A stretch of DNA of 53,534 nt, from the NCBI GenBank assembly GCA_003140235.1, contig PLJN01000156.1:19456-72989 (forward strand). The letters are read 5' to 3'. Source of the DNA: Acidobacteriaceae bacterium. Its GTDB lineage: Bacteria > Acidobacteriota > Terriglobia > Terriglobales > Acidobacteriaceae. The translations under genes were made by a program, and so were the position numbers. Below the pieces are notes generated by a model. The model searched no databases. It saw nothing but the letters and a program-made list of their open reading frames with translations, and was not told the origin of the DNA. The stretch's first letter is position 1, and each line of letters starts with the position of its first letter. Of the stretch, positions 3,877 to 51,918 are shown in pieces.

Positions 3877-3923
3877 CGGCTGTAGGGATCCCTCTCCCGC
3901 GTTGCGGGATCGCGATGTTTCAG
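3877..3923 (+). repeat. Dispersed AGGGATCCCT repeat, copy A
   Basis: The copy has a palindromic core AGGGATCCCT (3884-3893) followed by a perfect TCCCGC-gtt-GCGGGA hairpin (3895-3909), and it ends in TTTCAG. It fills most of the gap between two convergent genes and could end transcription from either side. A separate ATGTTTC/GAAACAT stem (3915-3937) reaches into the end of the next gene. Confidence 0.65.
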
Positions 3924-3925
3924 TC

Positions 3926-4804
3926 TTATCGAAACATGTCTGAAAGCTTCTCTTTAAACCACTCCCAACCGGTCTGCTGGCGCGGCAGTGGTGCTGGTGC
4001 GGGACTGTAGGCCCTCAGTCTTTCCACTTGCCGAAAGTCGGGCGGCACTTCAAACAGCGATGCGTCGAGCGGGCCGGAGCGGAACTCCACGACTTCCGAG
4101 CCCCATGTGGATACCAGCATTTTGGGCGCCCCGCGCTCTTTGATTTCGCTTTGCAGGGTGGTGCTGGCTTTGAGCGGAAAGCCTGGCTCATCACCCACGC
4201 GGTGCACGTCAATTTTATCTACTTTGTTCAGGCAGTTGCCGTTCGCGTTGTTGGACACGGCGGAGGCCACGACCACGCCGCCCACGCCCTTCTTTAGCGG
4301 GCGCCATTGCGGTACTACGGCCGTGTCAACATACCAACCGTCCGTCTGGCTTTCCGAACTGCCGGAACATGCTCCCGGGCTGGCGATGCGCTTTTCGCGC
4401 GTGATGATGTGGCGCGCCAGATGTCCGAATATTTCTTTGCGCTCTCCGGTATCGACGTAATCAAGCCAAATCTGTAGAGTGCCGCCGGAATCGCCGGTTG
4501 GTTTGGGCCTGACGCCGAGCGCGAGTCCGCGCGCGTCCGTTTCGTAGGTCACAAACTCATGGGCCTGCAAGTCGAGCACAAAAACTTTCTGTCGTTCCCC
4601 GCCCAGGATGATGTTGGCCATGGTTGACCCGGGCCGGTCGGGCACGCTTTGCCATTCGCTTCTGAGACGGTCCGCGGTCACGTAGTCGATTCGCGTGTCT
4701 GCCATGCCTGCGGTCATTTGCCGCGTGACAATCTTTACACCGTTGACGGTTGGCCCCGGCAACGCAAGTGAAATCACCAAAAATAGCAGCAGCCCCATTT
4801 GCAT
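3926..4804 (-). CDS. Secreted hypothetical protein
   Basis: A 292-residue protein with an N-terminal hydrophobic signal segment (about residues 3-22), so it is probably exported. I recognise no domain. It has a beta-rich composition, and a stretch around residues 70-95 (FVLDLQAHEFVTYETDARG) resembles the lipoprotein-localisation-like or DUF4412-like proteins common in Acidobacteria. Two cysteines near residues 146 and 192 could form a disulfide. It is transcribed towards the preceding operon with the repeat between them. No functional claim is made. Confidence 0.65.
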   Translation of the reverse strand: MQMGLLLFLVISLALPGPTVNGVKIVTRQMTAGMADTRIDYVTADRLRSEWQSVPDRPGSTMANIILGGERQKVFVLDLQAHEFVTYETDARGLALGVRPKPTGDSGGTLQIWLDYVDTGERKEIFGHLARHIITREKRIASPGACSGSSESQTDGWYVDTAVVPQWRPLKKGVGGVVVASAVSNNANGNCLNKVDKIDVHRVGDEPGFPLKASTTLQSEIKERGAPKMLVSTWGSEVVEFRSGPLDASLFEVPPDFRQVERLRAYSPAPAPLPRQQTGWEWFKEKLSDMFR

Positions 4805-4914
4805 ATTCTCTGCTCTTTTCCCCCAAAAGACGAATAGTGTGCATTATTGTACTCGCAGACAATCGCATTGAAAGGAAGTTTTTAGCAGGAAAAAGCACGT
4901 GAGTGAATGGCCGT

Positions 4915-5274
4915 TCATTTCAGCTTATCTAACACTGCCGCGAGGGTATCCAGGGCAAGATGAGTCGCATGGACTGAAGCGTTGGGGAGACCACCCAGGG
5001 CGTCCAGCAATTGCTCGCGCTTGAGCGCAGTGGCTTCCGGAACAGACTTTCCCAATACCAACTCGGTAAGGCATGAGCCTGCGGCAATCGAGGCCACGCA
5101 ACCGCGCACGCGGTAGCGGACTTCGGCCACCTTGCCGTCGGAAAGCTTGACGGCCAACGTCATGATGTCTCCGCACACAGGGTGCTCAATGCGGGCTTCG
5201 GCATCCGCGTTCGGCAGATCGCCAACGTTGCGCGGATGCTCAAAATGATCGAGAACTGTGTCGGAGTAACTCAT
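4915..5274 (-). CDS. IscU/SufU/NifU-N-like iron-sulfur cluster scaffold protein
   Basis: The ATG at 5274 gives a 119-residue protein that starts with MSYSDTVLDHFEHPRNVG, the classical beginning of IscU/NifU N-terminal domains. Cys34 lies in HPVCGD (with the conserved Asp36) and Cys59 in RGCVASIAAGS, the first two cluster-ligand cysteines. The third ligand position, normally Cys in an H-C motif, reads VHATHLAL here, so that cysteine is missing. Extra Cys68 and two histidines (102 and 105) are nearby. No cysteine desulfurase is adjacent. The gene diverges from the BtuF-like gene. Confidence 0.8.
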   Translation of the reverse strand: MSYSDTVLDHFEHPRNVGDLPNADAEARIEHPVCGDIMTLAVKLSDGKVAEVRYRVRGCVASIAAGSCLTELVLGKSVPEATALKREQLLDALGGLPNASVHATHLALDTLAAVLDKLK

Positions 5275-5306
5275 GCTGGAATAGAGTTCTGTAATGGCGC
5301 TCCTTC

Positions 5307-5321
5307 TATAATCCCATGATG
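5307..5321 (+). promoter_or_regulatory. -10 box placed for leaderless transcription of the BtuF-like gene
   Basis: TATAAT at 5307-5312 lies exactly 6 nt before the ATG at 5319 and 3 nt before the ATG at 5316. There is no room for a ribosome binding site, which favours 5319 as the true start. Confidence 0.5.
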
Positions 5322-6134
5322 CCAGAAGACTACCTTCCACGGCGAGTCGCGTCGTTGCAGCCCAGCATCACGATCACCATGCGCGATCTCGGTGTGCTGC
5401 ACCGGCTCGCGGCCTGTACCAAGTATTGTCTGGAGGCATGTCCTGAGATTGCTGACCTGGGCTGCGCCATCATCGAGGACTCATGGACCGCGGACGCGGC
5501 TGAAATTCTGGCTGCCAAGCCCGATCTGGTAATTGCTTCCGTCCCCTACCGGATGGAAGCGCTGGCCGAGATTATGAAATGTGGTGTGCCTTTTCTGGGA
5601 TTTGCGCCCAAGTCGTTGCGCGACGTTTACACCGACATCGCCACCATCGCCCGAACCCTTGGCGAACCCGAACGCGGCGCGGCGTTGATCGTCCGGATAC
5701 AAGCTGGGATTGAAGCCGTGCGGGAACGAGTCGCCGGTGCTGATCGTCCATTGGTTTATTGCGAAGAGTGGGGCAATCCTTTGATCTTCTCTCAGCGCTG
5801 GGTTGCGGAAATGGTGGAAGCATCTGGCGGACGCTTTCTGGGCGAACCAGGCAAGCAGACTACCGCTGAGGAAATATTGGCCGCCGAACCGGACATCATG
5901 ATTGCTGCCTGGTGCGGCGCTGGTGATCGCGTGCCGCTGGAAAAAACCATTGCTCGTCGCGGTTGGGAGAACACCAAGGCAGCGAAGGCTGGTCGCGTGT
6001 ATTGTGTTCAGGATGAATTCTTGAACACTCCGGCCAGTAATTTACTGGACGGACTGCGGGCGCTAGCGGCTGCTATTCATCCGGAGTTGTTTGGCGATGC
6101 TGTTGGGTTACGCCGTCTAACATTCCGAGCGTAG
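5316..6134 (+). CDS. BtuF-like substrate-binding protein without signal peptide
   Basis: A protein of about 272 residues in the helical-backbone periplasmic binding fold used for vitamin B12 and iron complexes. It shows an early RRVASLQPSITI strand, SWTADAAEILAAKPDLVIA, and a second-lobe TTAEEILAAEPDIMIAAWCG. It lacks any signal peptide or lipobox: the first strand begins about 8 residues after the start, so it appears to be cytoplasmic. Family members without export signals are known next to B12-related genes, but no corrinoid transporter is nearby, so the ligand is unknown. Starts at 5316 and 5319 are both possible; the promoter position favours 5319. Confidence 0.78.
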   Translation: MMPEDYLPRRVASLQPSITITMRDLGVLHRLAACTKYCLEACPEIADLGCAIIEDSWTADAAEILAAKPDLVIASVPYRMEALAEIMKCGVPFLGFAPKSLRDVYTDIATIARTLGEPERGAALIVRIQAGIEAVRERVAGADRPLVYCEEWGNPLIFSQRWVAEMVEASGGRFLGEPGKQTTAEEILAAEPDIMIAAWCGAGDRVPLEKTIARRGWENTKAAKAGRVYCVQDEFLNTPASNLLDGLRALAAAIHPELFGDAVGLRRLTFRA

Positions 6135-6195
6135 TGAGGAATCCCTACCTTCTGCTGAATCTACGAGGCGACGCGCGCTTGGCTGTGAGTCGTAA

Positions 6196-6245
6196 GGCTA
6201 TAGGGATCCCTCACCCCGCAAAGAACGCGGAGTTCGGGGTTTCAG
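6196..6245 (+). repeat. Dispersed AGGGATCCCT repeat, copy B
   Basis: The palindrome AGGGATCCCT (6202-6211) is followed by an ACCCCG...CGGGGT stem and ends in TTTCAG (6240-6245). A second partial tail, TTCGGGATTTTAGGAAAAAG, follows immediately and supplies the AGGA ribosome binding site of the next gene. Confidence 0.65.
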
Positions 6246-6271
6246 AGAAGTTCGGGATTTTAGGAAAAAGC

Positions 6272-7285
6272 ATGAAAGTAGATAAAGGCACAGTTCGCGC
6301 ACCGGAGATTGGACGCATCTGGTTCAACTCGCCGCCACTCTCCATGCGTCAGCTGCGCGGGCGCGTGGCACTGGTTGATTTCTGGGATTACACGTGCGTG
6401 AACTGTATACGTACGCTGCCCTATGTCAAAGAATGGCACGCGCGTTACCAGGACAAAGGCCTCACGGTAATCGGCATACACACGGCGGAGTTTCTGTTTG
6501 CCCGCTATGAGAGCAACGTCGAGCGCGGGATTGAAGAGTTTGGAATCGAGTATCCCGTGGTGGTCGACAGCAACAGCGAACTCTGGGACGCGTTCGCCAA
6601 CCGCTACTGGCCCACGAAATATCTGATTGATGGCGAAGGCTACCTTCGCTACGCCCATTTCGGCGAGGGCGCTTATCGCGAAACGGAAGAGACCATCCAG
6701 GAGCTGCTGCGGGAGATCAACCCTGGCGTCCAACTTCCGCCGGTCATGGATCCGCTGCGGGACACTGATGCGGCGGGCGCAGTCTGCTATCAGCCCAGCG
6801 CGGAACTATATCTCGGGCACCGCCGCGGACGCATCGGCAACAAGAGCGGATTTGTGGAAGACACCTCGGCCCAGTACTCGCACACCGGCGAAATGAAAGA
6901 CGGCTTCTTTTATGCCGAAGGCAACTGGACAGCCACGGGCGACCACATTGAATCCCCCGACGAGAAGGAAGCTAAGATCACGATTCGCTATTCCGCCGCG
7001 GCCGTGAATCTGGTGATGGCGTCCTTCAATCCTCAGCCACGCGAGGTTGAAATTCTTCAGGACGGCCAATCGATTCCACCGGCCATCGCAACCCGGGATT
7101 GGCGCTTCCGCGACGGGCGCAGTTACATTCAGGTGGCTCGTCCGCGCATGTACTCGCTGGTCAACAATAAAACTTTCGGCACGCATACGCTGGAACTGAT
7201 CACCCGTCAGCCGGAAGTTGCCATGTTTGCTTTTACGTTTACCAGCTGTTTGGACCGCGAATTCTCTGAGGCCCCTAAAGCATGA
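6272..7285 (+). CDS. Thioredoxin-fold protein, DipZ-like soluble part
   Basis: The ATG at 6272, preceded by TTAGGAAAAAGC, gives a 337-residue protein. Residues about 20-160 are a TlpA/AhpC-like thioredoxin fold with the redox motif WDYTCVNCIRTLP (CxxC near residues 45-48) and the cis-proline region YWPTKYLID. The C-terminal half (about 190-330) is a beta-rich domain like the one found at the end of DipZ proteins, with GFFYAEGNW near its start. DipZ also has a membrane CcdA-type part, which is absent here. There is no signal peptide, so it is probably a cytoplasmic thiol-disulfide protein. It overlaps the Nudix gene by ATGA. Confidence 0.8.
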   Translation: MKVDKGTVRAPEIGRIWFNSPPLSMRQLRGRVALVDFWDYTCVNCIRTLPYVKEWHARYQDKGLTVIGIHTAEFLFARYESNVERGIEEFGIEYPVVVDSNSELWDAFANRYWPTKYLIDGEGYLRYAHFGEGAYRETEETIQELLREINPGVQLPPVMDPLRDTDAAGAVCYQPSAELYLGHRRGRIGNKSGFVEDTSAQYSHTGEMKDGFFYAEGNWTATGDHIESPDEKEAKITIRYSAAAVNLVMASFNPQPREVEILQDGQSIPPAIATRDWRFRDGRSYIQVARPRMYSLVNNKTFGTHTLELITRQPEVAMFAFTFTSCLDREFSEAPKA

Positions 7286-7698
7286 AACAAGTTGTGGCAG
7301 CAATCATCGTGCGCGATGAGCAAATCCTGATATGCCAGCGCACGCGGCACCAGCCCATGCCGCTGAAGTGGGAATTTCCCGGCGGCAAAGTCGAGCCAAA
7401 AGAGCAGCCCGTGGACGCGTTGCGCCGCGAACTCGACGAAGAACTGGGCATCCACGCGAAAATCGGTCCGCAAGTGGCTGTAGTGCAGCACGCTTATGGC
7501 AATGGTACGTCCGTGGAACTGCGGTTTTATCTGGTCCAGCAGTTTGAGGGTGAAATCCAAAACCGTATTTTCCGCGATGTGCGCTGGGTCAGCCGGAAAG
7601 AACTTCCGACTTATGACTTTCTGGAAGCCGACGTCGGACTGGTCAGGGACATTGCCAAAGGGACCATCGAGCTTACTGGCCCACGATCGCCAAAGTAA
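7282..7698 (+). CDS. Nudix hydrolase, MutT-like
   Basis: A 138-residue Nudix protein with a complete Nudix box: GGKVEPKEQPVDALRRELDE and following EELG (about residues 34-57). The early VVAAIIVRDEQILICQR strand and the short size match MutT / 8-oxo-dGTP diphosphatase-type enzymes, which cleanse oxidised nucleotides in the cytoplasm; the substrate is inferred. The start overlaps the previous stop (ATGA), so it is coupled to the thioredoxin-fold gene, and both could serve oxidative stress. Its last 26 bp overlap the 3' end of the convergent transporter gene. Confidence 0.87.
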   Translation: MKQVVAAIIVRDEQILICQRTRHQPMPLKWEFPGGKVEPKEQPVDALRRELDEELGIHAKIGPQVAVVQHAYGNGTSVELRFYLVQQFEGEIQNRIFRDVRWVSRKELPTYDFLEADVGLVRDIAKGTIELTGPRSPK

Positions 7699-8920
7699 CG
7701 GTCAACGCAATCACAATCGCAACTGTGATCCAGGCAATCCAATTAAAAGTCCGGCTGTTCACGTATTTTCCCATCAGGCTGCGCTTGTTGATCAGTAACA
7801 GCATATAGATGAGGACCGGTGGCAGCAGAACTCCGTTCAACACTTGGGAAAGGACAGACACTTTCGTCCGCAGGTGGTCTGGAATGAACATTCCAACGGC
7901 AGCCCCGGCCCCCACCAGGAGCGTGTAGAGCCAGTAAAAAACCGGGGCTTCGCTGAACTTCTTATCGAGTCCGGATTCAACGCCCAGACCTTCGCACACG
8001 GTGTAAGCGGTGGACAGCGGCAGAATCGAGGCAGCGAAGAGTGACGCGTTGAACAGTCCGGCTCCAAACAGCAGGAACGCAAATCTGCCGGCAAGGGGCT
8101 CAAGAGCTTGAGCAGCATCGGCCCCAGTATCAACGTTGTGGATCCCATAGACAAACAATGTTGCGCCGCAGGCCACAATAATGAACCAGGCCACCACATC
8201 CGTGAAGATACAGCCCAGAATCACGTCCAGCCGGGAAGCTTTGTACTCGCGCGCCGTAACTCCTTTTTCCACGACAGACGCCTGGAGATAAAACTGCATC
8301 CAGGGAGCAATCGTCGTACCGACGGTAGCGATCAACATGTAGATGTATTCCTTGCGGAACATGATGTGACGCGAAGGGGGTACGACTGTGGCGTGCAAGG
8401 CATCTTTCCAATTGGGGTGGGCCAAAAAGCCGGCGACAATGTAGCAGATATAGAAAAAAGAAGCCGTCAGGAATATTTTCTCGACCGATTTGTAATTGCC
8501 TTTGATGACCATCAGCCACACCAGCAAGGCCGCAATCGGGACGCTGATGTACTTGGAGACATAAAACAAATCCACGCTATTGGCTATGCCGATGAACTCG
8601 GTTATCACGTTCGTGAAATTGACGGCCACGAGCATGAGCATTACGAGAAAAGTCGCGCGGAACCCGTACTCTTCCCGAATCAGATCGCTGAGTCCTTTGC
8701 CGGTGACCGCGCCCATGCGGGCACACATTTCCTGGATCACAATCAGGGCAATGGTGATGGGAACGAGGCTCCACAGAAGCTGGTATTGAAATTGAGCGCC
8801 CGCCTGGGAATAGGTGATGATGCCGCCGGCATCATTGTCAACATTGGCGGTGATGAACCCCGGGCCGACGACGGCGAGGATCAGCAGGGTCCGGGCTTTC
8901 CAACTCTTGAGCCATTTCAT
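7673..8920 (-). CDS. Nramp-family metal transporter with non-canonical binding motifs
   Basis: A 415-residue integral membrane protein with about 11 helices and Nramp hallmarks such as VGPGFITANVD in TM1. The canonical TM1 DPGN reads DAGG (residues 30-33) and the TM6 MPHN reads APWM. The Asp is kept, but the Asn and the transition-metal-selective Met are lost. From memory, loss of that Met is a feature of the Nramp-related magnesium transporters, so Mg2+ or another hard cation is a better guess than Mn2+ or Fe2+. The gene 92 bp upstream encodes MgtE_N and CBS domains, which agrees with this. Confidence 0.85.
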   Translation of the reverse strand: MKWLKSWKARTLLILAVVGPGFITANVDNDAGGIITYSQAGAQFQYQLLWSLVPITIALIVIQEMCARMGAVTGKGLSDLIREEYGFRATFLVMLMLVAVNFTNVITEFIGIANSVDLFYVSKYISVPIAALLVWLMVIKGNYKSVEKIFLTASFFYICYIVAGFLAHPNWKDALHATVVPPSRHIMFRKEYIYMLIATVGTTIAPWMQFYLQASVVEKGVTAREYKASRLDVILGCIFTDVVAWFIIVACGATLFVYGIHNVDTGADAAQALEPLAGRFAFLLFGAGLFNASLFAASILPLSTAYTVCEGLGVESGLDKKFSEAPVFYWLYTLLVGAGAAVGMFIPDHLRTKVSVLSQVLNGVLLPPVLIYMLLLINKRSLMGKYVNSRTFNWIAWITVAIVIALTVTLAIVGQ

Positions 8921-9012
8921 TGGGCACGTTCAGACGGAATTTCATACCGAACTTGCAGAATAAACGAGAGTGGAAGCGAGAACAACCGCCGACGGCAAGA
9001 ATTCTCGAAAAT

Positions 9013-10260
9013 TTACAATTTGCTGCGCAGGATGCTGATCACGTCGTCTGCCGTGATGATGCCGGTGAGCCGCATTTGCTCGTCCACGACTGCCAAAGTA
9101 AGCAGGTTGTACTTATCGAACATCTCTGCGACTTCTTTTTCGCTGGCGCCGGCCGGGCAGTAGATCAGATGGTCGGGAGCCAGCGCGGTAAGCTTTGTGG
9201 CCGCCGGTGCCAGCACCAGGGACACCAGCGGTACCGATCCCTTCAGGATTTCGTGGGCGTCCACCAGGTAGATGTTGCTGATCGTCTCGCGGTCTCCTTC
9301 AAAGGACCCCAGCCTCTCGATGGCATCGCCCACCGTCGCTTCCGGAGGGAGGGCGATATAGTCGGTGGTCATGTGACCGGCTGCGGTGTGTTCTTCAAAT
9401 GCCAGTAACTCGGAGACTTCCTGCCGCTCTTCCGGCTCCATCTCTTCCAGGATTTCGTCTGACGTTTCCTGCGGCATGTCGCCCAACAGGTTGGCGGCGG
9501 CATCCGGGTCCATCTCTTCGACAATGTCCGCGGCTTTGTCGGAATCGATCGAGCTCATCAGGTCCACTTGCATCCTGGGATTGATCTCTTCCAGAGCTTC
9601 CGCGGCCACTCCTTCCTCTAAGGACCCAAAGACAGCTTCGCGCTCGGCGGGAGCCAGGTCTTCCAGAATGTCGGCAATGTCCGCAGGATGGAGCTTCGAC
9701 AGCCGCGAATACGCCAGCTTGAGCCGCACGCGCCGCGTGGGATCGGTCTCGATCAGATCAACGACTTCCCAAGGAATGCTCTTGTCCGGCATGCGGCTGG
9801 CCAGAGCTTCCACTGCCTTCATTGGCGCCAGCCCGCGCAGCAAGCGGCGAACGGCGCCGCGCAGTCCAATGTCCACGCGGCCCAGCTTTAACCTGAGAGT
9901 GCCGTTGATCTGCTCGGGATGAATGTCCACGTCATTCACCCGCACCACTTTGCGTCCGGAGACGTCAATAATCTGCTGGTCGAGCAGGTCGCGCTCCAGC
10001 AGCAGCAGGCCGTCGGAGCTGACCAGGGGCGGCCACTCGTCCACTTTTCCCTTGACGGTGATTACGCCACGTTCCAGCGAACTCATTTCTTTGGCCAGGA
10101 GCAAGCGGTCGCCGTCGGCCGTCTTGATGACCAGTTCAGAAATGTACGAAGAATCGTCTTGCGGAGAGAGCGCCACTTCGCGCACATGTCCGGCCAGCTT
10201 CCCTGATCCATCGTGGACGGGAGCGCCGAGAAGGCTCGAGAGTGCGATTTCGCCAGACAT
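9013..10260 (-). CDS. PRC-barrel / MgtE N-domain / CBS-pair protein, putative Mg2+ sensor
   Basis: A soluble 415-residue protein without membrane segments. Residues about 1-160 look like two PRC-barrel segments (LLGAPVHDGSGKLAGHVREV and later DQQIIDVSGRKVVRVNDVDI). Residues about 195-295 are an acidic MgtE intracellular N domain with repeated LHPADIADILEDL- and MDPDAAANLLGDMP-type helices. Residues about 290-415 are a CBS pair (HMTTDYIALPPEATV; TGIITADDVISIL). In MgtE channels these domains sense Mg2+ and gate the pore. Here the pore is absent and an Nramp-like transporter follows 92 bp downstream on the same strand. A regulatory role for that transporter is inferred. Confidence 0.82.
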   Translation of the reverse strand: MSGEIALSSLLGAPVHDGSGKLAGHVREVALSPQDDSSYISELVIKTADGDRLLLAKEMSSLERGVITVKGKVDEWPPLVSSDGLLLLERDLLDQQIIDVSGRKVVRVNDVDIHPEQINGTLRLKLGRVDIGLRGAVRRLLRGLAPMKAVEALASRMPDKSIPWEVVDLIETDPTRRVRLKLAYSRLSKLHPADIADILEDLAPAEREAVFGSLEEGVAAEALEEINPRMQVDLMSSIDSDKAADIVEEMDPDAAANLLGDMPQETSDEILEEMEPEERQEVSELLAFEEHTAAGHMTTDYIALPPEATVGDAIERLGSFEGDRETISNIYLVDAHEILKGSVPLVSLVLAPAATKLTALAPDHLIYCPAGASEKEVAEMFDKYNLLTLAVVDEQMRLTGIITADDVISILRSKL

Positions 10261-10348
10261 ATTTACGCCTGACGGCAGAATACCGGATGTGGTTTGCTCG
10301 TGCCATAAAGAAATGAAAAACGGCGAGCGAATCCGGCGTCAGTCGCGG

Positions 10349-11122: not shown

Positions 11123-11177
11123 ACGTTCTTCGCCCAGCCGCGACATGCGCCCCTAGATCATTAAGAAGCCCGGCTAT

Positions 11178-12024: not shown

Positions 12025-12037
12025 CACGCGTCTTTGT

Positions 12038-12586
12038 ATGCCCAGAATCTCACGCCTTGACCGCTCCCAGGTAACGGATGAAGTGGCGCATATCTACGAC
12101 CACTTCATGAAAGTGCGCGGCAACATCCCTAACATGTTCCGCACCGTGGCCCATCGCCCGGAGATTCTCACGACAATGATTGCGCATTTCCGCGCGGTCC
12201 TGGAGACCGGCACGGTCCCGGTCAAACTGAAAGAACTGGTGATCGTCCGCACCAGCCAGATCAACTCCTGCCAGTATTGACTCGCGTCACACACCGTCTT
12301 GGCAAGACGGCTGGGATGGACCGACGACCAACTCCAAAATCTCGCGGACTTTGAAAAGCGCTCCGACTTTACCGATCAGGAAAAAATCGCTCTCCGGCTG
12401 GCAGAACACGTCACCCACGACGCCCGCACTGTGGACGACCAGCTATGGATCGAACTGCGCCGGCACTTTGATGAAGGCGAGATCGTCGAGCTGCTCTGCT
12501 CCATCGGACTCTTCAACTATTTCAATCGCTTCAATGACGCGCTGACCATGGAGCCGACTGCCTCTCCAGCCCCCGAACGGCAGTGA
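12038..12586 (+). CDS. AhpD/CMD-family selenoprotein (in-frame TGA read as Sec)
   Basis: One reading frame runs from the ATG at 12038 to the TGA at 12586 and is broken only by a TGA at 12278-12280. The family's redox motif is normally C-x-x-C-x-x-x-H. Here the residues are NSCQY, then TGA, then LASHTVLARRLG: Cys78, the TGA at 81 and His85. The TGA therefore falls exactly on the resolving or catalytic cysteine. Residues after it continue the carboxymuconolactone-decarboxylase/AhpD fold without interruption to 182. A SECIS-like hairpin follows the TGA at bacterial spacing. Reading it as selenocysteine gives a CxxU peroxidase-type protein; the alternative is a single TGC-to-TGA nonsense mutation. 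The selenocysteine genes are not in the window. Confidence 0.75.
12278..12310 (+). promoter_or_regulatory. Putative bacterial SECIS element
   Basis: Downstream of the in-frame TGA (12278-12280), CCGTCTT (12294-12300) pairs perfectly with AAGACGG (12304-12310) around a GGC loop. The loop begins 20 nt after the TGA and starts with G, which matches the known bacterial SECIS rules (short stem, G among the first loop bases, about 16-25 nt from the UGA). The stem lies inside coding sequence, as bacterial SECIS elements do. Confidence 0.65.
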
Positions 12587-12602
12587 GGGGCCCCTATAGC
12601 CT
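12584..12602 (-). repeat. Dispersed repeat, copy F (degenerate, reversed)
   Basis: On the minus strand this reads GGCTATAGGGGCCCCTCAC, a variant of the family's head with palindrome AGGGGCCCCT (12586-12595). It overlaps the stop codon of the selenoprotein gene. It points away from copy C, which lies 60 bp further on. Confidence 0.45.
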
Positions 12603-12663
12603 CAGAAATGTTGGGTCGCGCAAGTTTTATCCAGCCTCTTCATTTACCCATCCGAGATTGCCG

Positions 12664-12702
12664 TTGCAATAGGGATCCCTCGCTGACGCTCGGGATGTCT
12701 AG
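12664..12702 (+). repeat. Dispersed AGGGATCCCT repeat, copy C
   Basis: The palindrome AGGGATCCCT (12671-12680) is followed by CGCTGACGCTCGGGATG and a diverged TCTAG tail. It lies between two convergent genes. Confidence 0.6.
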
Positions 12703-12709
12703 ACGTAGC

Positions 12710-13111
12710 TTATTGCGTCACAACCTTGTCTCTTATCGCTGCATATTGGTCCGCAGGTAAAACGTGCCTGCTCCGTAAAGAGTCGCGTGTGCGATAGGGA
12801 CGGCCGGCGATAATGCGGTCCGCCGTGTCCCCATCCACGCCGGGAAGCGTTTCCAGCCTGATCTTGGAAGCGGAATTCACGTTGACCGGCTTATCCGGCG
12901 CTTGCCAGCCTTGCTTTACACCTTCGACGGCCGCTTTGGTGTGCTTGGCCGCCTCATTCACGTCTTTCTTCAGTTCGATGCCTGCGGCTTTGCCTTCTGC
13001 TTTGACCTTTTCCGTGGCTTGCGCCGCCTTCTCGCGGGTCTGCTCGGGGGTCTGGTTGCAGCTGGTTGCCAGCGCCAGGGCTAAAATCGAGATTCCTGTC
13101 AGCACTTTCAT
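12710..13111 (-). CDS. Lipoprotein with a ComEA-like helix-hairpin-helix domain
   Basis: A 133-residue protein. Its signal peptide ends in a lipobox (LATSC, lipidated Cys18). Residues about 25-75 are a charged amphipathic helix rich in Ala, Lys and Glu. Residues about 78-110 form a helix-hairpin-helix of the ComEA type (VNVNSASKIRLETLPGVDG, then ADRIIAGRPY). ComEA-type domains bind DNA in the periplasm, but the motif also occurs in lipoproteins of unknown role. GAAGGATG precedes the ATG. It is transcribed towards the selenoprotein gene. Confidence 0.75.
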   Translation of the reverse strand: MKVLTGISILALALATSCNQTPEQTREKAAQATEKVKAEGKAAGIELKKDVNEAAKHTKAAVEGVKQGWQAPDKPVNVNSASKIRLETLPGVDGDTADRIIAGRPYRTRDSLRSRHVLPADQYAAIRDKVVTQ

Positions 13112-44885: not shown

Positions 44886-44906
44886 GTTGTTGACGTCTTT
44901 AGATCA

Positions 44907-45230
44907 TCAAGCCAGATCAAGCGCCATCTTTAGAGCGCGGTTTACCTCGGCAAGGGTCGGTGGCGGGAGCAAACTGACGTATCGTGTAAGGTCGGATTTG
45001 CGTACACTGACCAAGTTGTCGCACATAATCCAGCTTGGGTGCTTCAGTCCATGCTCGGGGCCTATGGCAACCTGAGTGGTCAGCCCCTGGCCGCTGGAAA
45101 AAACCGGCGCACAGACAATGCTTGAGAACTTGGAATCAATGAGCGCTTGGCGGCTTACCACCACAAAGAGGCGATACTCTCTTGGATCGCCTCCCGGCTT
45201 GTGGACGCGGTACACTTCTCCGCGCTTCAC
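44907..45230 (-). CDS. MazF/PemK-family toxin
   Basis: A 107-residue protein with the MazF fold: MKRGEVYRVHKPGGDPREYRLFVVVSRQ, then APVFSSGQGLTTQVAIGPEHGL and CDNLVSVRKSDLTRYV. The positions of RNA-binding Arg and Ser are kept in the strand after the first loop. Such toxins are sequence-specific mRNA endonucleases. The start overlaps the stop of the antitoxin gene (ATGA), the usual layout. It lies between dnaB and murF-alr, a housekeeping context, so it is a small inserted module. Confidence 0.85.
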   Translation of the reverse strand: MKRGEVYRVHKPGGDPREYRLFVVVSRQALIDSKFSSIVCAPVFSSGQGLTTQVAIGPEHGLKHPSWIMCDNLVSVRKSDLTRYVSLLPPPTLAEVNRALKMALDLA

Positions 45231-45481
45231 TGTGGCTCCAAGTCCGTAGTTTCCACCGATGCCTGATAGCCCAGGACATCAGCAGCTTCTGCATTCAATT
45301 GCTCGGCCGCCCGGTTGATTAATTTCAGATCGTGCGCATGGGCCTCAGCCCGCTTACGCTCCCGCAGATAGCGTCGAAGCACACTCTCAATGACAGCAGA
45401 ACGGGAGTTTCCTGATCCGGTCAGCTGGTCGATGCCAGCCAGTACGTCCTTTGAAAGTGTGATAGATGTCTTCTCTTTCAT
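45227..45481 (-). CDS. Ribbon-helix-helix antitoxin
   Basis: An 84-residue protein. Residues about 4-42 form a CopG/MetJ-type ribbon-helix-helix (TSITLSKDVLAGIDQL...SRSAVIESVLRRYLRE) that binds DNA as a dimer. The acidic and Glu-rich C-terminal tail (about 50-84) would wrap and inhibit the MazF toxin. It is the first gene of the module, as expected for a repressor. A minus-strand TATAAT lies exactly 6 nt before its ATG. Confidence 0.83.
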   Translation of the reverse strand: MKEKTSITLSKDVLAGIDQLTGSGNSRSAVIESVLRRYLRERKRAEAHAHDLKLINRAAEQLNAEAADVLGYQASVETTDLEPQ

Positions 45482-45499
45482 ACTACTATTATACTACCA
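45480..45499 (-). promoter_or_regulatory. Operator/promoter of the toxin-antitoxin operon
   Basis: On the minus strand two direct GTAGTAT repeats are spaced 11 bp apart (plus-strand 45480-45486 and 45491-45497), one helical turn, as expected for two RHH dimers. They flank TATAAT (45493-45488). Binding would block the promoter and cover the first codon. Confidence 0.6.
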
Positions 45500-45500
45500 A

Positions 45501-48017
45501 CTATGGTTCGAGGTATATCCTATGCACTCTCTCACCCAACCGGGTGAGTAGTTCATGCGCGATGGCGCCCGCGCTTTCTGCAACCTGTTCCGGGCGAAGC
45601 GTGTAGCCGTTGTGCGTTCCGTAGAGCAGGACTTCGGCGCCGACGTTAATGCCCGGAATCCCGGTGATATCAACCTGCATCTGGTCCATGCTGATTCGGC
45701 CCACGATGGGCGCGGGATTGCCTTCGACCAGAACGTGTCCTTTGCCGGAGAGTCCCCAGGGCAGGCCGTCGTCGTAGCCAAAGGGGACCACGCCGACTTT
45801 TATTTTTTGCGTTGCGGTGTACGTGCGGTTGTAGCCCAGCGTGGCGCCCGGCGCGAACTCATGAATACTGGTAATGCGGCTGGTCACGCCGATGGCCAGT
45901 TCCAGGTCCATGGCGCGCCGCACCGCTTCAGAGGGGTACATCCCGTACAGGCCCAGACCGATGCGTACCATGTTGTAGTGCGCTTCGGGAAAACGAACGG
46001 CAGCCGCGGTGTTAGAGGCGTGGACTTGTAGATCGTTGAACCCGTCGGCCTTTAACTGGTTGACTACCTGGTCGAACGCGGCGATCTGTTGCCGGGTAAA
46101 CTCGTCCGCTTGCGGATCTTCGGCGGAGGCAAAGTGCGTGCAAACGCCGGTCAGGCGCATGACGCCGCTGGCCCGGATACTGCGCGCCAACTCGAGTGCA
46201 TGTTCCGGTGCAACGCCCAGACGATGCATTCCAGTATCGACTTTGAGGTGAACATCCAGCGTGCGTCCGCTTCCGTCGAGTGACCGGGCGAATACGTCCA
46301 CAAGTTCAGCTGAGTAGATGACCGGCGTGAGCCGGTAGCGGAGAAGGTTATCAACGTCCTCGCGGTCGGCGAGGAAGACAAAAATATCTTGATCGGCGCC
46401 GGTCTTGCGGACCGCGACTCCTTCGTTGGCGGACGACACGCCAATATTGTGAATGCCCAGGCGCGACATCCAGGAAGCAAGCTGGACGAGATCAGTGCCG
46501 TAGGCCATGGCTTTGAGCATGGCCAGAATGTGTGTGCCGCTGCCGCAGTGGCGGCGGAAACGCGCAATGTTTCCTTCGATTGCCGCCAGGTTGATCCACT
46601 GGCAGCGCTGCGCGATGGCGCCGGAAAGATCGCGCACTGCCTTGACCATGCCTGCATTGCGTGGACCTTTGAAGAGCACAGTGTCACCGGAGCGCAGCAG
46701 CGGCAGTAATTGGTCTTTAAGTTCGCCGGGAGTCTGCACGCGGACCACCTGGCCATCCGGCTGGGTGGACATGAATCCTTCCGCGGTGCTTTGCAATTCT
46801 CCGTTGCCGACGAGGAACAGTTGGTCGAATCCGCACTCGCCGGCCTGCGCGCCTACTTGCCGGTGTTCGCGTTCCGAACTGGCTCCCAACTCGCGCATGC
46901 CGGCGAACGCGAAAATCTTTTTGCCGCCGCTTGCCGTTCCCAACGCGGCCGAGCGCAAAGCTGCATGAACAGAGATGGGGTCAGAGCTGTGTCCGTCATT
47001 GATCAGCCGTACGCCCTGTGGCGACGACCACAGTTCCATGCGGGTTGACGCCGGCGTGTAACCTTCGAGCGCCGTGGCGATCTCGTCCAGTGTCACGCCC
47101 AGCAGCCGAGCGGCGCAGGCGGCGAAATGCAAGTCAGAAATGATCTCCGCCGAGCGGGTCTTGACCGTCACGGTACGGACGCCGACAGACGCGATCCGCA
47201 GCTCCAGCAGTTGACCTTCTTCTGTATAGGAAATAGGCGTGAGCGAAAGAGCCTGCGAGTCCGGACCAACTTGATGGACAGCGCACTTCAGATTGTGGGC
47301 CATCTGTTCAATCGTCGGCTCATTCGATGGCAAGAGCACCCAGCCGTCTTGTTCGATGTTCGCGAAAAGGGCCATCTTTTCCTTCGCAATGGCCTCGCGG
47401 CTTCCGAACGAGGCAAAGTGCGCCATGCCGATGTTGGTAAGAATTCCATAGTTGGGCGCGGCAATCTGTTCCAGCGGCGCCATCTCTCCCGGAGCGGACA
47501 CACCCACTTCCAGGATCGCGAGCGGCTCCGGTTTTTCCGCGGACAGCACCGCGAGCGGAAGTCCCAACTGACTGTTGTAGCTTCCCGGTGAAGCCAGGAA
47601 CTGCTGGCCGGCAAGCAAAGCGCGCAAGGCATCTTTGACTATTGTCTTTCCGTTACTGCCGGTAATGGCCAGGACTTTGCCGAAGAATTCCCGGCGCTGC
47701 CAGCGGGCCAGTGCCTGGAGCGCGCGCAAGGAGTCGGAGACAACGATCAGGGGCCACTCCGGCTGCAAAGCCAGACTACTGATGGCATCCTGCGCTGCCA
47801 CATTCTGAGCAACCATGGCCGCGGACGCACCATTGCGGAAGGCGTCCGCGAGAAAGCGGTGGCCGTCCGTCTGGTGGCCTTGCAACGCAACAAAAAGCGA
47901 TCCCGGCGAAGCGCCGCGCGAGTCTGTGCTAACGCGCTCGACCGTCGTGGACGCAGACGGGCCGCGCAATTCGCCGCCCACAGCATGAGCGATTTGATCG
48001 AGTTTCGCTGGGACCAA
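45501..48017 (-). CDS. murF-alr: Bifunctional MurF ligase / alanine racemase fusion
   Basis: An 838-residue fusion. Residues about 1-455 are MurF (UDP-MurNAc-tripeptide:D-Ala-D-Ala ligase) with ATP-binding ITGSNGKT (118-125) and the domain 3 substrate motifs (NDGHSSDPISV; FAGMRELG). Residues about 465-838 are a fold-III alanine racemase: PLP lysine in AMLKAMAYG (about residue 502), the Tyr in ATLGYNRTYTA, and MDQMQVDITG. One protein thus makes D-Ala and adds D-Ala-D-Ala to peptidoglycan precursor. The start is TTG at 48017. Similar fusions are known in Bacteroidetes. Confidence 0.9.
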   Translation of the reverse strand: MVPAKLDQIAHAVGGELRGPSASTTVERVSTDSRGASPGSLFVALQGHQTDGHRFLADAFRNGASAAMVAQNVAAQDAISSLALQPEWPLIVVSDSLRALQALARWQRREFFGKVLAITGSNGKTIVKDALRALLAGQQFLASPGSYNSQLGLPLAVLSAEKPEPLAILEVGVSAPGEMAPLEQIAAPNYGILTNIGMAHFASFGSREAIAKEKMALFANIEQDGWVLLPSNEPTIEQMAHNLKCAVHQVGPDSQALSLTPISYTEEGQLLELRIASVGVRTVTVKTRSAEIISDLHFAACAARLLGVTLDEIATALEGYTPASTRMELWSSPQGVRLINDGHSSDPISVHAALRSAALGTASGGKKIFAFAGMRELGASSEREHRQVGAQAGECGFDQLFLVGNGELQSTAEGFMSTQPDGQVVRVQTPGELKDQLLPLLRSGDTVLFKGPRNAGMVKAVRDLSGAIAQRCQWINLAAIEGNIARFRRHCGSGTHILAMLKAMAYGTDLVQLASWMSRLGIHNIGVSSANEGVAVRKTGADQDIFVFLADREDVDNLLRYRLTPVIYSAELVDVFARSLDGSGRTLDVHLKVDTGMHRLGVAPEHALELARSIRASGVMRLTGVCTHFASAEDPQADEFTRQQIAAFDQVVNQLKADGFNDLQVHASNTAAAVRFPEAHYNMVRIGLGLYGMYPSEAVRRAMDLELAIGVTSRITSIHEFAPGATLGYNRTYTATQKIKVGVVPFGYDDGLPWGLSGKGHVLVEGNPAPIVGRISMDQMQVDITGIPGINVGAEVLLYGTHNGYTLRPEQVAESAGAIAHELLTRLGERVHRIYLEP

Positions 48018-48132
48018 AGGCGTTTACTCCGCTGGCTGGTTGGACTTGCAGCCAGGACAAGCCACAAGCAAAACCTTACCACTGATTCAGGCTGATGACA
48101 CTTATTCAGAGAAATGGTCTAATCCAAATATC

Positions 48133-50532
48133 ATGTACACCCTGTTGCAAGACGTTCGCTACGCGCTACGCATGATGCGCAAGTCACCTGCCTTCTCTTT
48201 GGCCGCCATTCTGACGCTGGCTCTGGGCATGGGCGCGAATACCGTGATGTTCAGCGTTCTGAATACTGTTTTGCTGCGTCCTCTTCCTTACCCGCATCCC
48301 GACCGGTTGGTGCAGATTTGGGAGACCGACTCCCGGCGTGGCGACACACATGGCGTGGTCTCGGCTTATAACTTCGTGGACTGGCGCAATCAAAGCCAAA
48401 CTTTAGCGCAGATGGCGACCTATGATTCCAATAGTGCCGTGCTCACCGGGCAGAAAGCGCCCCGGCGAGTCTACATTTCTTTCGTTTCCGCTGGTTTTTT
48501 CGATGTGCTTCAAATCACCCCCCTTAAGGGCCGTACTTTCCTGGCCGGCGAAGACGACCCGGGCAAAGACCGCGTGGTGGTCCTGAGCTATGGGGCATGG
48601 CAGCGGCATTTTGGCAGTGATCCAGGCATTGTGGGAAAAACCATTACTCTCGATGGCAACACGTATTCGGTTGTCGGCGTGATGCCTGGATCTTTTGCGT
48701 TTCCCGGACCCGGCACGGAAATGTGGTGCCTGCCGGGATTTGACTTGACCAAAGTCGGGCGTAGGCACCACGGTCTTCTCGCAGTCGGGCGGATGAAGCC
48801 CGGCATTCCTCTTGACCAGGCACAAGCTGAGATGAACACCATAGCTGACGGTCTGGACAAGCAGTATGGAACATTCGGCGGCGTCAGGTTGGTCGGGCTG
48901 CAAGACGAGACGGTAGGCAATGCGCGGCGTAGTCTGCTGGTGTTGTGGGCCGCCGTAATTGCCGTGCTGCTGATTGCCTGCGCCAATGTGGCCGGACTGC
49001 TTCTGGCCCGCGCGATCTCGCGACAAAAAGAAGTCGCCATTCGAGTCGCGCTAGGTGGTACCCGGACGCGTCTCATCCGGCAGTTTCTCACCGAGAGTGT
49101 CTTGCTGGCGCTTGCCGGAGGCGGTCTGGGTGTGCTGCTGGCACTCGGGGCAGGGCGGTTTGTGATCGCCAGCAGCAACGGAGCGATACCGCGCCTGCGC
49201 GACCTCCAGATCAACGCCTGGGTACTGGCATTTAGCGGTGCCGTTTGCATTGTCACCGGCGTGATGTTTGGCCTGGCTCCGGCTTTACATGCCTTGCGGT
49301 CTGCGTTGAACACTTCACTGAAGGAAGGAGGTTCAAGGTCTTCGCAACTCTCAGACCGGTTGCACTTGCGCAGCTTCTTCGTGGTATCTGAGCTTGCTCT
49401 CGCTGTGGTTCTGCTGGTCAGCGCCGGGCTGCTCACGAAGACTCTGTGGCGACTGCAACATGTCGATACGGGGTTCCAGTCCGAGAACATTCTTAGTTTC
49501 CGCTTCGCCCTGCCGCAAGCGAAATATCCGGAACCTCGTCAGCGAGCGGATTTGTATCAGCGGATTGAAGAGCGGCTGGCAGCCTTGCCCGGCGTTGAGT
49601 CGGTGGGCGCGACCAGCGGTCTGCCCTTCGGCGGCTCACGCTCCGCTACCTCTTTTGACATCGAGGGGCGCCCCTACGATGCGGCGCATATGCCCCTGCC
49701 CCACGCCGATTACCGCACCGTCAGCCCGGCTTATTTCCAGACAATGCGCATGCCTCTTCTCGAGGGTCGGGAGTTTACGCTGCACGACAGCCAGAGCGCG
49801 CCTTCTGTGACCGTTGTCAGCCAGGCCTTTGTCAGGAAATTTTTTCCTGACCGCGGACCCATCGGGCAGCGCCTGAAAATCCATGATCAATTCTTTGAAA
49901 TTGTCGGCGTGGTCGCCGACATTAAGCAGGATGATCTGGCTGCGCCCGGTATCCCGGAAATGTACGCGTCGCATCTGCAAGCGGACGCGTCACCGACGGC
50001 ATTTTTTGTTGTGCGCAGCCGCACTGAGTTGCGCGCGCTGGCGGCTTCCGTCCGCAGCGCGGTTCAAGAGATCACACCCGATGAGCCTATCTACAGCCCG
50101 AGCAGCATGAATGACCTCCTCTCTCTCGCTATAGCGCCGCAAAAATTCAGCAGCCTGTTGCTCGGAATCTTTGCCGGGCTGGCTTTGCTGCTGGCGGCCA
50201 TCGGGATTTATGGAGTGATCTCGTACATGGTCGCCCAGCGCACGCACGAAATCGGCATTCGCATGGCTTTAGGTGCGGACAGGAAAGACGTGCTGCGCCT
50301 GATCCTGCGCCAGGGCGCTCGGATCGCGGCCATAGGCTTGACGCTGGGGACGGTCGCCGCGCTGGTGGCAACTCAGGCCCTTTCCAGTCTGCTATTTGGA
50401 GTGAACGCCAAAGACCCAGGCATCTTTCTGGGCGTGGGAGTTTTATTGGCGCTCGTCGTCCTAATGGCCAGCTATGTTCCCGCTCGCCGGGCTGCTAAGG
50501 TCGATCCGCTTGTGGCGCTACGCTGCGAGTAG
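48133..50532 (+). CDS. MacB/FtsX-type permease, acidobacterial duplicated orphan (ADOP) family
   Basis: The ATG at 48133 gives 799 residues. Two FtsX-MacB modules are each preceded by a periplasmic MacB_PCD-like domain. Helices occur at about 20-45, 280-305, 335-360, 375-400, 425-450 and three near the C-terminus (about 690-790). The start (MYTLLQDVRYALRMMRKSPAFSLAAILTLALGMGAN) and the repeated GIGMALGA-type motif are the ADOP signature. No ATPase is adjacent, which is what orphan means. The substrate is unknown; MacB relatives export peptides or act as mechanotransmitters. It diverges from murF-alr. Confidence 0.85.
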   Translation: MYTLLQDVRYALRMMRKSPAFSLAAILTLALGMGANTVMFSVLNTVLLRPLPYPHPDRLVQIWETDSRRGDTHGVVSAYNFVDWRNQSQTLAQMATYDSNSAVLTGQKAPRRVYISFVSAGFFDVLQITPLKGRTFLAGEDDPGKDRVVVLSYGAWQRHFGSDPGIVGKTITLDGNTYSVVGVMPGSFAFPGPGTEMWCLPGFDLTKVGRRHHGLLAVGRMKPGIPLDQAQAEMNTIADGLDKQYGTFGGVRLVGLQDETVGNARRSLLVLWAAVIAVLLIACANVAGLLLARAISRQKEVAIRVALGGTRTRLIRQFLTESVLLALAGGGLGVLLALGAGRFVIASSNGAIPRLRDLQINAWVLAFSGAVCIVTGVMFGLAPALHALRSALNTSLKEGGSRSSQLSDRLHLRSFFVVSELALAVVLLVSAGLLTKTLWRLQHVDTGFQSENILSFRFALPQAKYPEPRQRADLYQRIEERLAALPGVESVGATSGLPFGGSRSATSFDIEGRPYDAAHMPLPHADYRTVSPAYFQTMRMPLLEGREFTLHDSQSAPSVTVVSQAFVRKFFPDRGPIGQRLKIHDQFFEIVGVVADIKQDDLAAPGIPEMYASHLQADASPTAFFVVRSRTELRALAASVRSAVQEITPDEPIYSPSSMNDLLSLAIAPQKFSSLLLGIFAGLALLLAAIGIYGVISYMVAQRTHEIGIRMALGADRKDVLRLILRQGARIAAIGLTLGTVAALVATQALSSLLFGVNAKDPGIFLGVGVLLALVVLMASYVPARRAAKVDPLVALRCE

Positions 50533-50689
50533 TCTTCCTGCCCGGCCAGCGCGGCTGACGCTGTTCACAATTCCGCCAGCCTAACAATGGCAATGATCGC
50601 CGTTGAACCCGCCCTAAGCGCAGTTGAATGCTCCAGAATATGTGCATCCGCGATGATCTTCTAGAATCAATGTTCACATAAAATTTCAA

Positions 50690-51790
50690 ATGCTCAGCCT
50701 CTACCAGAAGTGGATGTATTCGTGGGAGACGCGTCTCACCAGCCGCGACACCAATCGTGTGGTGCGTCCGCTGGAATGGGGACTGGACTGGGCGCGCCGC
50801 TGGCCGCTGGTGAACGGCGACTGTCCGCAGTCGGAAGAGGGCTGCGAACCCTACCTGCATGGATTGAACGACCGCATTGTGGCCCGCAGTGACGACTTTT
50901 ACGCCTACGACACACCGACTGATTTTCGCCTGGAAACACGCAAGATTGAACTCTTCCCGACCGGCAGCAATGCGGCAGACAAAGTACCCAAGGGTGACGG
51001 AGAATTCCTGCGCTTTACCTCGCCGGCGACTACGCCCTATCCGGAAAATGATCTGGTCAACGCTCGCTGGTTCCCGGCCGAAGGCAAGCGCGCTGTAATA
51101 GTGCTGCCGCACTGGAACGCCAATGGCATCGCCTACAACGCGCTCGGTCCCATGCTGAACCGTTTTGGCGTGTCCATGTTGCGGCTGAGCAAACCTTACC
51201 ATGACATTCGCCGTCCGCGCGAGACGGTGCGGTCGGACTACGCTGTGTCGCCCAACATTTGCCGCACGATTGACGCCGCTCGCCAGGCGGTGGTTGATGT
51301 GCGTTCTTGCATCGACTGGCTGGAATCGCAAGGAAAAGAAAGCGTAGGGATTCTCGGAACCAGCCTCGGATCGTGCTATGCGTTCATCGCCGCAGCGCAT
51401 GACAAGCGGCTCAAGGTCAATGTGTTTAACCACGCGTCAACCTACGTGGCTGACGTTTGCTGGACCGGACAATCGACTCGCCACGTGCGTGAAGGCTTTG
51501 AAAACCATGGCTTAACGCTCGACCGTCTGCGCCAGATGTGGCTGAGCATCAGCCCCATGGCCTATTTCGACAAGTTTGCGCGCTTCCCGAAAAAGTGTCT
51601 GATGATCTACGCCAAATACGACCTGACATTTCTGCCCGAATTCTCACTCCAGGTCGCCCATGAATTCCGCAGCCGTGGCACCGATGTGAAGACTGTTGTT
51701 CTCCCGTGCGGTCACTACACAACAGGTGAGACGCCGTTCAAGTTTTTAGATGCGTATCACATGGTCAGGTTTCTAGTGAAGAATCTGTGA
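50690..51790 (+). CDS. Alpha/beta-hydrolase
   Basis: A 366-residue cytoplasmic protein with an alpha/beta-hydrolase fold. The nucleophile elbow is GILGTSLGSCYA (Ser near residue 224), the acid is in IYAKYDLTFLPEF (Asp) and the base His in PCGHYTTGE. The oxyanion strand is AVIVLPHWNANG. The N-terminal 120 residues (WMYSWETRLTSRDTNRVVRPLEWG) form a cap-like extension. No substrate can be inferred. TAAAAT (50679-50684) ends 5 nt before the ATG with no Shine-Dalgarno, another nearly leaderless start. It lies alone between convergent and divergent neighbours. Confidence 0.75.
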   Translation: MLSLYQKWMYSWETRLTSRDTNRVVRPLEWGLDWARRWPLVNGDCPQSEEGCEPYLHGLNDRIVARSDDFYAYDTPTDFRLETRKIELFPTGSNAADKVPKGDGEFLRFTSPATTPYPENDLVNARWFPAEGKRAVIVLPHWNANGIAYNALGPMLNRFGVSMLRLSKPYHDIRRPRETVRSDYAVSPNICRTIDAARQAVVDVRSCIDWLESQGKESVGILGTSLGSCYAFIAAAHDKRLKVNVFNHASTYVADVCWTGQSTRHVREGFENHGLTLDRLRQMWLSISPMAYFDKFARFPKKCLMIYAKYDLTFLPEFSLQVAHEFRSRGTDVKTVVLPCGHYTTGETPFKFLDAYHMVRFLVKNL

Positions 51791-51800
51791 CGTTCTTTTT

Positions 51801-51836
51801 CTAACATCCCGACCGGAGGGAGGGAGCCCTATCAGC
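51801..51836 (-). repeat. Dispersed repeat, copy E (variant palindrome, reversed)
   Basis: On the minus strand it reads GATAGGGCTCCCTC, then CCTCCGGTCGGGATG and TTAG. The palindrome is AGGGCTCCCT on that strand (51830-51821). It faces copy D head to head, 45 bp away. Confidence 0.5.
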
Positions 51837-51881
51837 TTCAATAATCTCTTGGGACCGACCGGCCAACCCTGAGCTTGTGAC

Positions 51882-51918
51882 ATAGGGTAGGGATCCCTCG
51901 CAACGCTCGGGATTTCAG
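51882..51918 (+). repeat. Dispersed AGGGATCCCT repeat, copy D
   Basis: The palindrome AGGGATCCCT (51889-51898) is followed by CGCAACGCTCGGGA and TTTCAG (51913-51918). A second TTTCAGAAAAAA occurs 12 bp later (near 51930). It lies between convergent genes. Confidence 0.65.

Follow-up and report, generated by a model that had tools for sequence, protein, structure and literature searches.

What is the short palindromic sequence that recurs between genes in a 53,534-nt stretch of the genome of an Acidobacteriaceae bacterium (assembly GCA_003140235.1, contig PLJN01000156.1, positions 19,456 to 72,989; hereafter the window), and how did it come to lie there? A preliminary description of the window had proposed a dispersed and structured intergenic repeat family, with four copies (here A to D) sharing the perfect core AGGGATCCCT. 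These cores are present, at 3884, 6202, 12671 and 51889, and the sequence is over-represented in the window (six matches with at most one mismatch against 1.35 expected; none of 100 shuffles reached six). We found that the repeat is made of hairpin arms, usually two of them set head to head around a variable middle to form one unit. We consider it probable, at roughly 60%, that these arms constitute a mobile repeat family of an acidobacterial genus that resembles REPINs (hairpin-forming doublets of repetitive extragenic palindromic sequences, REPs), carries an ATAG tag, is spread by an enzyme and probably acts as a hairpin at mRNA 3' ends.

An abundant family of intergenic hairpins

The source genome is a 4.9-Mb draft in 204 contigs, 89% complete. 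Since a joint MAFFT alignment of long and short arms was unusable, we built a covariance model of 41 positions from 30 short arms only. In a genome-wide search, it recovered at least 147 arms at E <= 0.01 (150 of 1664 candidates were scored), more than had been noted in the window, and an exact pattern matched 42 distinct sites (45 rows) where its reversed control matched none. The further copies without which a repeat family would be doubtful therefore abound, also beyond this genome: the exact pattern occurs in seven of eight relatives of the same genus and in three of 28 genomes from the family's other genera, and in none of 24 from the order and class. Named contigs with the exact short form comprise ten stretches of acidobacterial metagenome-assembled genomes (Candidatus (Ca.) Angelobacter, Ca. 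Korobacter, Acidobacteriaceae and Terriglobia) and one labelled Alphaproteobacteria. Across the phylum, 15 of 297 genomes (the source genome included) have the bare hairpin TCCCGAGCGNAGCGAGGGA, in up to 52 copies and with no control matches, and its flanks differ outside the genus (TGTCAT...CCTGGT, TGTCAT...CCCCGG). Judging by these flanks, the family of the genus looks like one branch of a broader hairpin class.

For the analysis of units, 60 of 71 merged regions (76 in the list) were sampled, leaving out nine weak or partial ones and the stronger C136 and C195. Of the 171 model matches, which came from 85 own sources, 167 were used; two duplicates (L024), a partial match (L203) and one near the end of its locus (L229) were set aside, and the ends of two matches (window 6193 and L015) were set by hand. 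(G, L and C numbers are our handles for genomes, loci and regions.) The 167 arms fall into 99 clusters, of which 92 are intergenic and seven overlap an open reading frame (ORF) called by our own ORF scorer, which was used in place of an annotation pipeline. Genome-wide, 103 clusters in 4.9 Mb make a density of about one per 48 kb.

The conserved fold is a stem-loop, not the palindrome

The conserved element is the stem-loop ATCCC-GA-GC-GNA-GC-GA-GGGAT, followed by CCCTAT. Read in the sense of the gene, an arm often begins with a T-tract and a foot resembling CTGA or CTAA, and then runs through ATCCC, GA, the inner helix with its loop, GA, GGGAT and CCCTAT; we refer to this as the GA strand. 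What had been described as a TTTCAG-like tail exists, but it is this outer flank, ahead of the hairpin in the gene's sense.

In the 30 short arms, the stem-loop (ATCCC..GGGAT with the inner GC/GC) had 92.4% standard pairs and 11 two-sided changes, equalled by none of 500 shuffles. The palindrome AGGGATCCCT, in which the preliminary description had placed compensatory changes, showed a single two-sided change in the same arms, and 57 of 500 shuffles did as well. Among the best 150 of the 171 matches, whose alignment was itself fitted to the covariance model, the stem-loop had 92.8% pairs and 85 two-sided changes versus 13.9 in shuffles (0 of 500 equal). Covariation thus tracks the stem-loop, and we rejected the palindrome as the conserved structure. 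Nor are the cores of the two reversed relatives palindromic throughout, as had been claimed: AGGGCTCCCT is not a perfect palindrome.

These patterns also bear on the idea that the repeat is the binding site of a dimeric protein, built on the palindrome TAGGGATCCCTA. The high conservation of the tag TAGGG/CCCTA and the perfect palindromy of the commonest core speak for such a site; yet the two bases at its centre are variable, and substitutions within GGG go with the hairpin partner rather than the palindrome partner, leaving this explanation highly implausible.

Within the stem-loop, some parts vary more than others. The outermost pair is weak (unpaired in 56 of 148 distinct sequences), and a simple count over 148 parsed arms gave an inner helix of 2 bp in 106, 5 or 6 bp in 21, and 0, 1, 3 or 4 bp in 21. 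Its GA/GA flanks are kept in 137 of the 148. Triloops close 81 of the 106 arms with a 2-bp inner stem, and 78 of these 81 read GNA; the GNA loop occurs in none of the 21 arms with a 5- or 6-bp inner stem. Hairpins of the type d(GCGNAGC) are specially stable, and a requirement for a stable fold would give rise to this loop rule.

Tags and T-runs were counted in the 164 of 167 arms that were long enough. Two bases ahead of the hairpin, on the opposite strand, stands an RTAG tag (ATAG in 120 of 164, GTAG in 25), and CTGA lies one base before the hairpin in 33. In four of four arm types, RNA folding is predicted to favour the GA strand over the opposite strand by 2.0-3.0 kcal/mol; as DNA, the predicted difference is 0.4-0.8 kcal/mol.

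Most arms form inverted doublets

Of the 66 clusters with several arms, 63 are simple head-to-head ('+-') pairs; the remaining clusters are 33 single arms, two '++-' and one '-+'. The middle between paired arms measures 235 nt in one of the 63 pairs and 6-107 nt in the remaining 62. Middles are mosaics: in 12 of 62, a second motif is present both ways round (CGCGAAT ... ATTCGCG), and four contain an ATCAGCG motif. The inverted CGCGAAT / ATTCGCG sequence is a second dispersed repeat in its own right, found between arms in L006, L008, L012, L017 and L024 and also at L035:594-658.

When whole units were folded as RNA, arm was predicted to pair with arm in 59 of 62. We nevertheless rejected inter-arm pairing as the conserved fold: energy favours it, but there is no clear co-variation between a unit's arms. 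The conserved fold appears to be the single arm, because the two arms of a unit are hardly more alike than shuffled partners.

Units are present or absent at orthologous gene ends

Comparison with relatives showed that whole units are present in some genomes and absent from others at the same gene end; neither a target duplication nor an excision product was seen. At the site of copy C, both arms lie at the orthologous gene end in the source genome, in G005 and in G007, where the second arm is weak (13 bits); the sequence changes among the three genomes keep the stem. G004 and G006 have no arms there, and behind the G002 homologue there is only a partial match of 17 bits. The encoded protein ends in EPTK in G004, G005, G006 and the G002 homologue; in the source genome and G007 it reads into the arm and ends in EPTASPAPERQ and EPTASVTPSR.

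At the site of copy D, both arms are found in the source genome, G008 and G004; the arms are conserved and the middles cannot be aligned by eye. G002 has a short spacer without a unit, and no match was found in G001, G003, G005 and G007, where another gene follows in the stretch read. In G003 (L154), a tandem run of about 17 CAGCA(C/T/G)T heptamers stands behind the orthologous gene, where some other genomes have the unit. At a further locus (L118), the source genome has a unit between two convergent genes; the left gene's stop codon falls within the foot of the unit, and the right gene's stop abuts the unit. In its place, G008 has 57 nt between the matching flanks. Another unit is common to G005, G007 and G008 at one orthologous place.

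Units lie directly behind stop codons

The preliminary description had placed most copies at the 3' ends of genes, and gene calls and stop distances confirm this. Of 89 units with both neighbours, 81 sit behind at least one gene end: 38 lie in convergent, 43 in tandem and eight in divergent gaps, whereas unit-free gaps of at least 60 nt at the same loci numbered 4, 77 and 26, respectively. The excess of convergent over divergent units (38 versus 8) has p = 9e-6 under equal likelihood. In tandem gaps, 37 of 43 units begin within 16 nt of the upstream stop, compared with a mean of 13.7 and a maximum of 24 in 20,000 permutations; at their other end, eight of 43 come equally close to the downstream start. 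A stop codon lies inside the arm at 13 of 105 gene ends and at the arm's foot at 13 more.

Orientation is also biased. Of 105 gene 3' ends that have a unit no further than 60 nt away, 102 meet the GA-sense strand; for pairs this orientation is forced by their form, and single arms in tandem gaps number 15 GA-sense and three antisense. From placement, strand and predicted fold, we infer that the arms have a role in RNA, and three explanations of the bias were weighed against the one we prefer.

First, units might be bidirectional intrinsic (Rho-independent) terminators that selection keeps between convergent genes. Their enrichment there fits, as do GC hairpins immediately behind stops and the retention of hairpins in orthologous units whose middle no longer aligns; moreover, on the opposite strand a run of at least four T follows the hairpin within 15 nt in nine of 164 arms (e.g., L015, L018 and L232). 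On the GA strand, however, a four-T run stands behind the hairpin in one of 164 arms (within 15 nt) and before it in 71, many units occupy tandem gaps, and some relatives have none at the orthologous place. With so few T-runs behind hairpins, intrinsic termination is unlikely as the general role and was rejected as such; the explanation as a whole is distinctly improbable.

Second, hairpins within about 15 nt of a stop might slow the terminating ribosome and so couple the repeat to translation, as E. coli REPs close behind a stop reportedly do. The tight spacing behind stops and the predicted GA-sense hairpins agree with this; but three short-form arms folded as RNA were predicted to be only moderately stable (-6.4 to -10.4 kcal/mol), and we regard such control as quite unlikely.

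Third, the repeat may be purely selfish or neutral REP-like DNA, its 3'-end bias being due to the removal of insertions from coding or promoter DNA. Avoidance of divergent gaps (8 of 89 units), patchiness across the phylum (15 of 297 genomes), the 26 of 105 gene ends with a stop codon inside a unit or at its foot, and an altered protein end at two loci compared with relatives are all in line with this. Yet where a tandem gap leaves 60 nt or more free, 18 of 24 units begin within 16 nt of the upstream stop and none of 24 ends that close to the downstream start, and the 15-to-3 strand bias of single arms likewise speaks against this account. The compensatory changes and the GNA rule further imply that the fold is kept, though a transposase's requirement for the fold would explain that too. 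We consider selfish DNA alone a plausible but doubtful account.

No transposase gene linked to the hairpin was found in the genus

The preliminary description had suggested looking for a linked transposase akin to RAYTs (REP-associated tyrosine transposases). Five genes with the Y1_Tnp domain were found in the source genome (L031, L032, L033, L034 and L035), each accompanied by its own distinct long inverted repeats, which are unrelated to the hairpin (e.g., CCCCCGGTGAAACCGGGGG and GCACAGGCACTCTTGCCTGTGC). Around Y1_Tnp genes of the genus, hairpins reached E <= 0.001 at 0 of 26 and 4 of 31 loci, approximately the background density. The four comprise one place in the source genome, at a distance of 0.8 kb, and a single orthologous place shared by three genomes, at about 1.6 kb; they fit the background because about one cluster per 48 kb is expected over the roughly 227 kb searched. 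Weaker matches lie in L033 (E 0.21) and L131 (E 0.06). Linkage to a RAYT in the genus is therefore unsupported. In a rough motif scan of 62 Y1_Tnp loci, none of the 19 proteins listed had the class 3 Y motif.

In other genera, the model matched in three of 30 Y1_Tnp loci (30 of 45 places, in eight hairpin-carrying genomes). Two of these matches lie 1.0 and 1.4 kb from the Y1_Tnp domain. The third, in G319 (L275:1885-2125), is partial (21.1 bits, E 0.0014). It lies upstream of a Y1_Tnp gene of 150 aa, at a distance of about 0.2 kb, inside that gene's own repeat block; this block holds the arm-like hairpin AGGGTTCCCTCGGCTCCGCTCGGGA. The 141-nt repeat block has 15 matches in G319, most of them to other parts of the block, and its hairpin part is present in a few copies. 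In the source genome, the block has a single 25-nt match, which is an arm of the hairpin family. This transposase-linked hairpin is a weak candidate lead.

It also touches a broader possibility, that the TCCCGAGCGNAGCGAGGGA hairpins form a superfamily, patchy over the phylum and with genus-specific tags, that multiplies without a dedicated RAYT by a single-strand mechanism and here homes on gene ends, supplying the stop codon and the mRNA end. We hold this to be unlikely, and slightly more so in view of the G319 hairpin.

Arms and neighbouring genes in the window

By the covariance model, the window holds seven arms, namely three head-to-head pairs (B, C and D) and the single arm A (Table 1). 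Two reversed relatives had been paired with copies C and D, and both are real; the partner of copy B had been missed, so that three of the four copies are paired. None of the Rfam 15 models matched the window at its gathering score.

Table 1. Hairpin arms in the window, with the strand on which each is read (for copy A, the GA strand) and the model score.
Arm	Position	Strand	Score (bits)	Pair span	Remarks
Copy A	3875..3923	-	21.6		single arm, long form
Copy B, left	6115..6155	+	44.4	6115-6247	core AGGAATCCCT
Copy B, right	6193..6247	-	41	6115-6247	long form; described earlier at 6196; model match 6193-6265, trimmed
Copy C, left	12563..12604	+	45.3	12563-12703	reversed relative described earlier at 12584
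Copy C, right	12662..12703	-	52.4	12563-12703
Copy D, left	51799..51839	+	49	51799-51920	reversed relative described earlier at 51801
Copy D, right	51880..51920	-	46	51799-51920

Copy A, with the inner helix TCCCGC/GCGGGA, lies between the convergent genes 3139-3867(+) and 3926-4804(-), immediately behind the minus-strand stop. A gene that ends at 6134 has its TAG stop inside the left arm of copy B, and the right arm of this copy is located upstream of a redoxin-like gene (6272-7285). The redoxin-like gene, directly behind copy B, is apparently absent from the orthologous place in G004, where DNA matches skip it; the unit and the gene may have come or gone together. In copy C, the left arm takes in the stop of a gene that ends at 12586, and the right arm stands immediately behind the stop of an HHH-motif gene (12710-13111, minus strand). 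The left arm of copy D has the inner pairs CC/GG in place of GC/GC, and its right arm follows the stop of gene 51947-52726(-) at about 32 nt.

The gene upstream of copy C (12038-12586, plus strand) resembles carboxymuconolactone decarboxylase/AhpD, with the Pfam domain CMD on the part before an in-frame TGA. This TGA, at 12278-12280, lies in a CxxU-like motif (INSCQY*LASHT, the asterisk marking it), and five relatives (L066, L067, L068, L069 and L071) have it in the same position. The source genome has a selenocysteine tRNA match of 73.1 bits (cut-off 47); eight of nine genomes of the genus pass this cut-off and G002 fails. The gene likely encodes a selenoprotein.

A proposed course of spread

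The anatomy of the repeat in DNA is directly observed, as is the presence or absence of units at the same gene end in different genomes, with the stop codon sometimes inside the unit. We propose that units would spread through a putative transposase that works in trans on the hairpins in their single-stranded form, the mechanism put forward for RAYTs and REPINs. They would then persist directly behind stops, where they would be transcribed as the strand predicted to fold better. The hairpin would most likely block 3' exonucleases and thereby set the mRNA 3' end, chiefly between convergent genes.

Several points weigh against this proposal. The differences between orthologous sites may be gains or losses of units. 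No mobilising enzyme was found in the source genome, the genus or the eight genomes of other genera, although the enzyme could be missing from the assembly, since the genome is 89% complete. Arm likeness is 0.788 within a unit and 0.766 between units, with 5 of 300 shuffles reaching 0.788; that arms of one unit are hardly more alike weakens the idea of the unit moving as a whole. In convergent gaps, closeness to both stops may reflect insertion into an already short gap. Finally, the stop and strand biases are weak or absent in two other genera with the same hairpin, in a small sample. There, the nearest gene ends within 60 nt were five sense and two antisense stops and two starts in G014, and four sense stops and five starts in G340; the same-genus G008 had eight distinct sense stops, no antisense stops and two starts (the rest being further off in all three).

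If the family is new, it adds a well-sampled REPIN-like repeat in a poorly studied yet abundant soil phylum, and it raises the question of which enzyme multiplies such a repeat without an adjoining RAYT. Its tight placement behind stops makes a role at mRNA 3' ends directly testable.

Relation to known repeat families

We recognised no literature description as this hairpin family, judging mainly by titles and abstracts; the acidobacterial repeats of two papers are known to us by description only. The first of these are the class 3 TnpA-Y1 hairpins, described from Acidobacteria with about 600 copies in Solibacter usitatus and a CnGA foot (PMC6006769). Phylum, high copy number and foot are alike, CTGA being found in 33 of our 164 arms; CTGA is, however, a minority foot here, and, with the comparison resting on the published description, identity with the Solibacter sequence is possible (PMC6006769). 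The second is reported from Koribacter versatilis, where TIRYT (tyrosine transposases with flanking inverted repeats) include one whose repeat is a repeated family (PMC3733652). The five Y1_Tnp genes of the source genome, with their own flanking repeats, resemble this arrangement; unlike the Koribacter repeat as described, the hairpin does not flank them (PMC3733652).

CGTC-type REPs, according to their published account, likewise occur mostly as head-to-head dimers with no dedicated transposase found nearby, but their stems are 8-9 bp long and the tags here are ATAG or GTAG, not CGTC (PMC3733652).

The closest parallels are with GTAG-type REPs, characterised in the accounts available as tagged hairpins in inverted doublets, located at 3' ends and occasionally supplying stop codons (Di Nocera et al. 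2013, PMC3733652; Bertels and Rainey 2011, PMC3116915). The acidobacterial repeat differs from them in a tag that is mostly ATAG rather than GTAG/GTRG, in its short basal stem (5 bp), its GA/GA internal loop and the GNA loop of short-form arms, and in that no linked, repeat-flanked RAYT (Y1_Tnp) gene was found in the genus. Like the REPINs and bacterial interspersed mosaic elements (BIMEs) of GTAG-type REPs, as these are described, it has a short stem-loop tagged by a tetranucleotide on one side, forms many inverted doublets and is intergenic; it lies between convergent and unidirectional genes, sometimes supplies the stop codon and, like GTAG-1 and GTAG-2, has a spacer dinucleotide between tag and stem (PMC3116915, PMC3733652). 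As in REPs generally, there are many extragenic copies, mostly downstream of genes, and as in REPINs, inverted doublets predominate (63 of 99 clusters) and are predicted to fold arm on arm (59 of 62). By its tag and, in this genus, by the linked gene, it falls outside the RAYT-type GTAG REPs; the repeat behaves like a REPIN or BIME.

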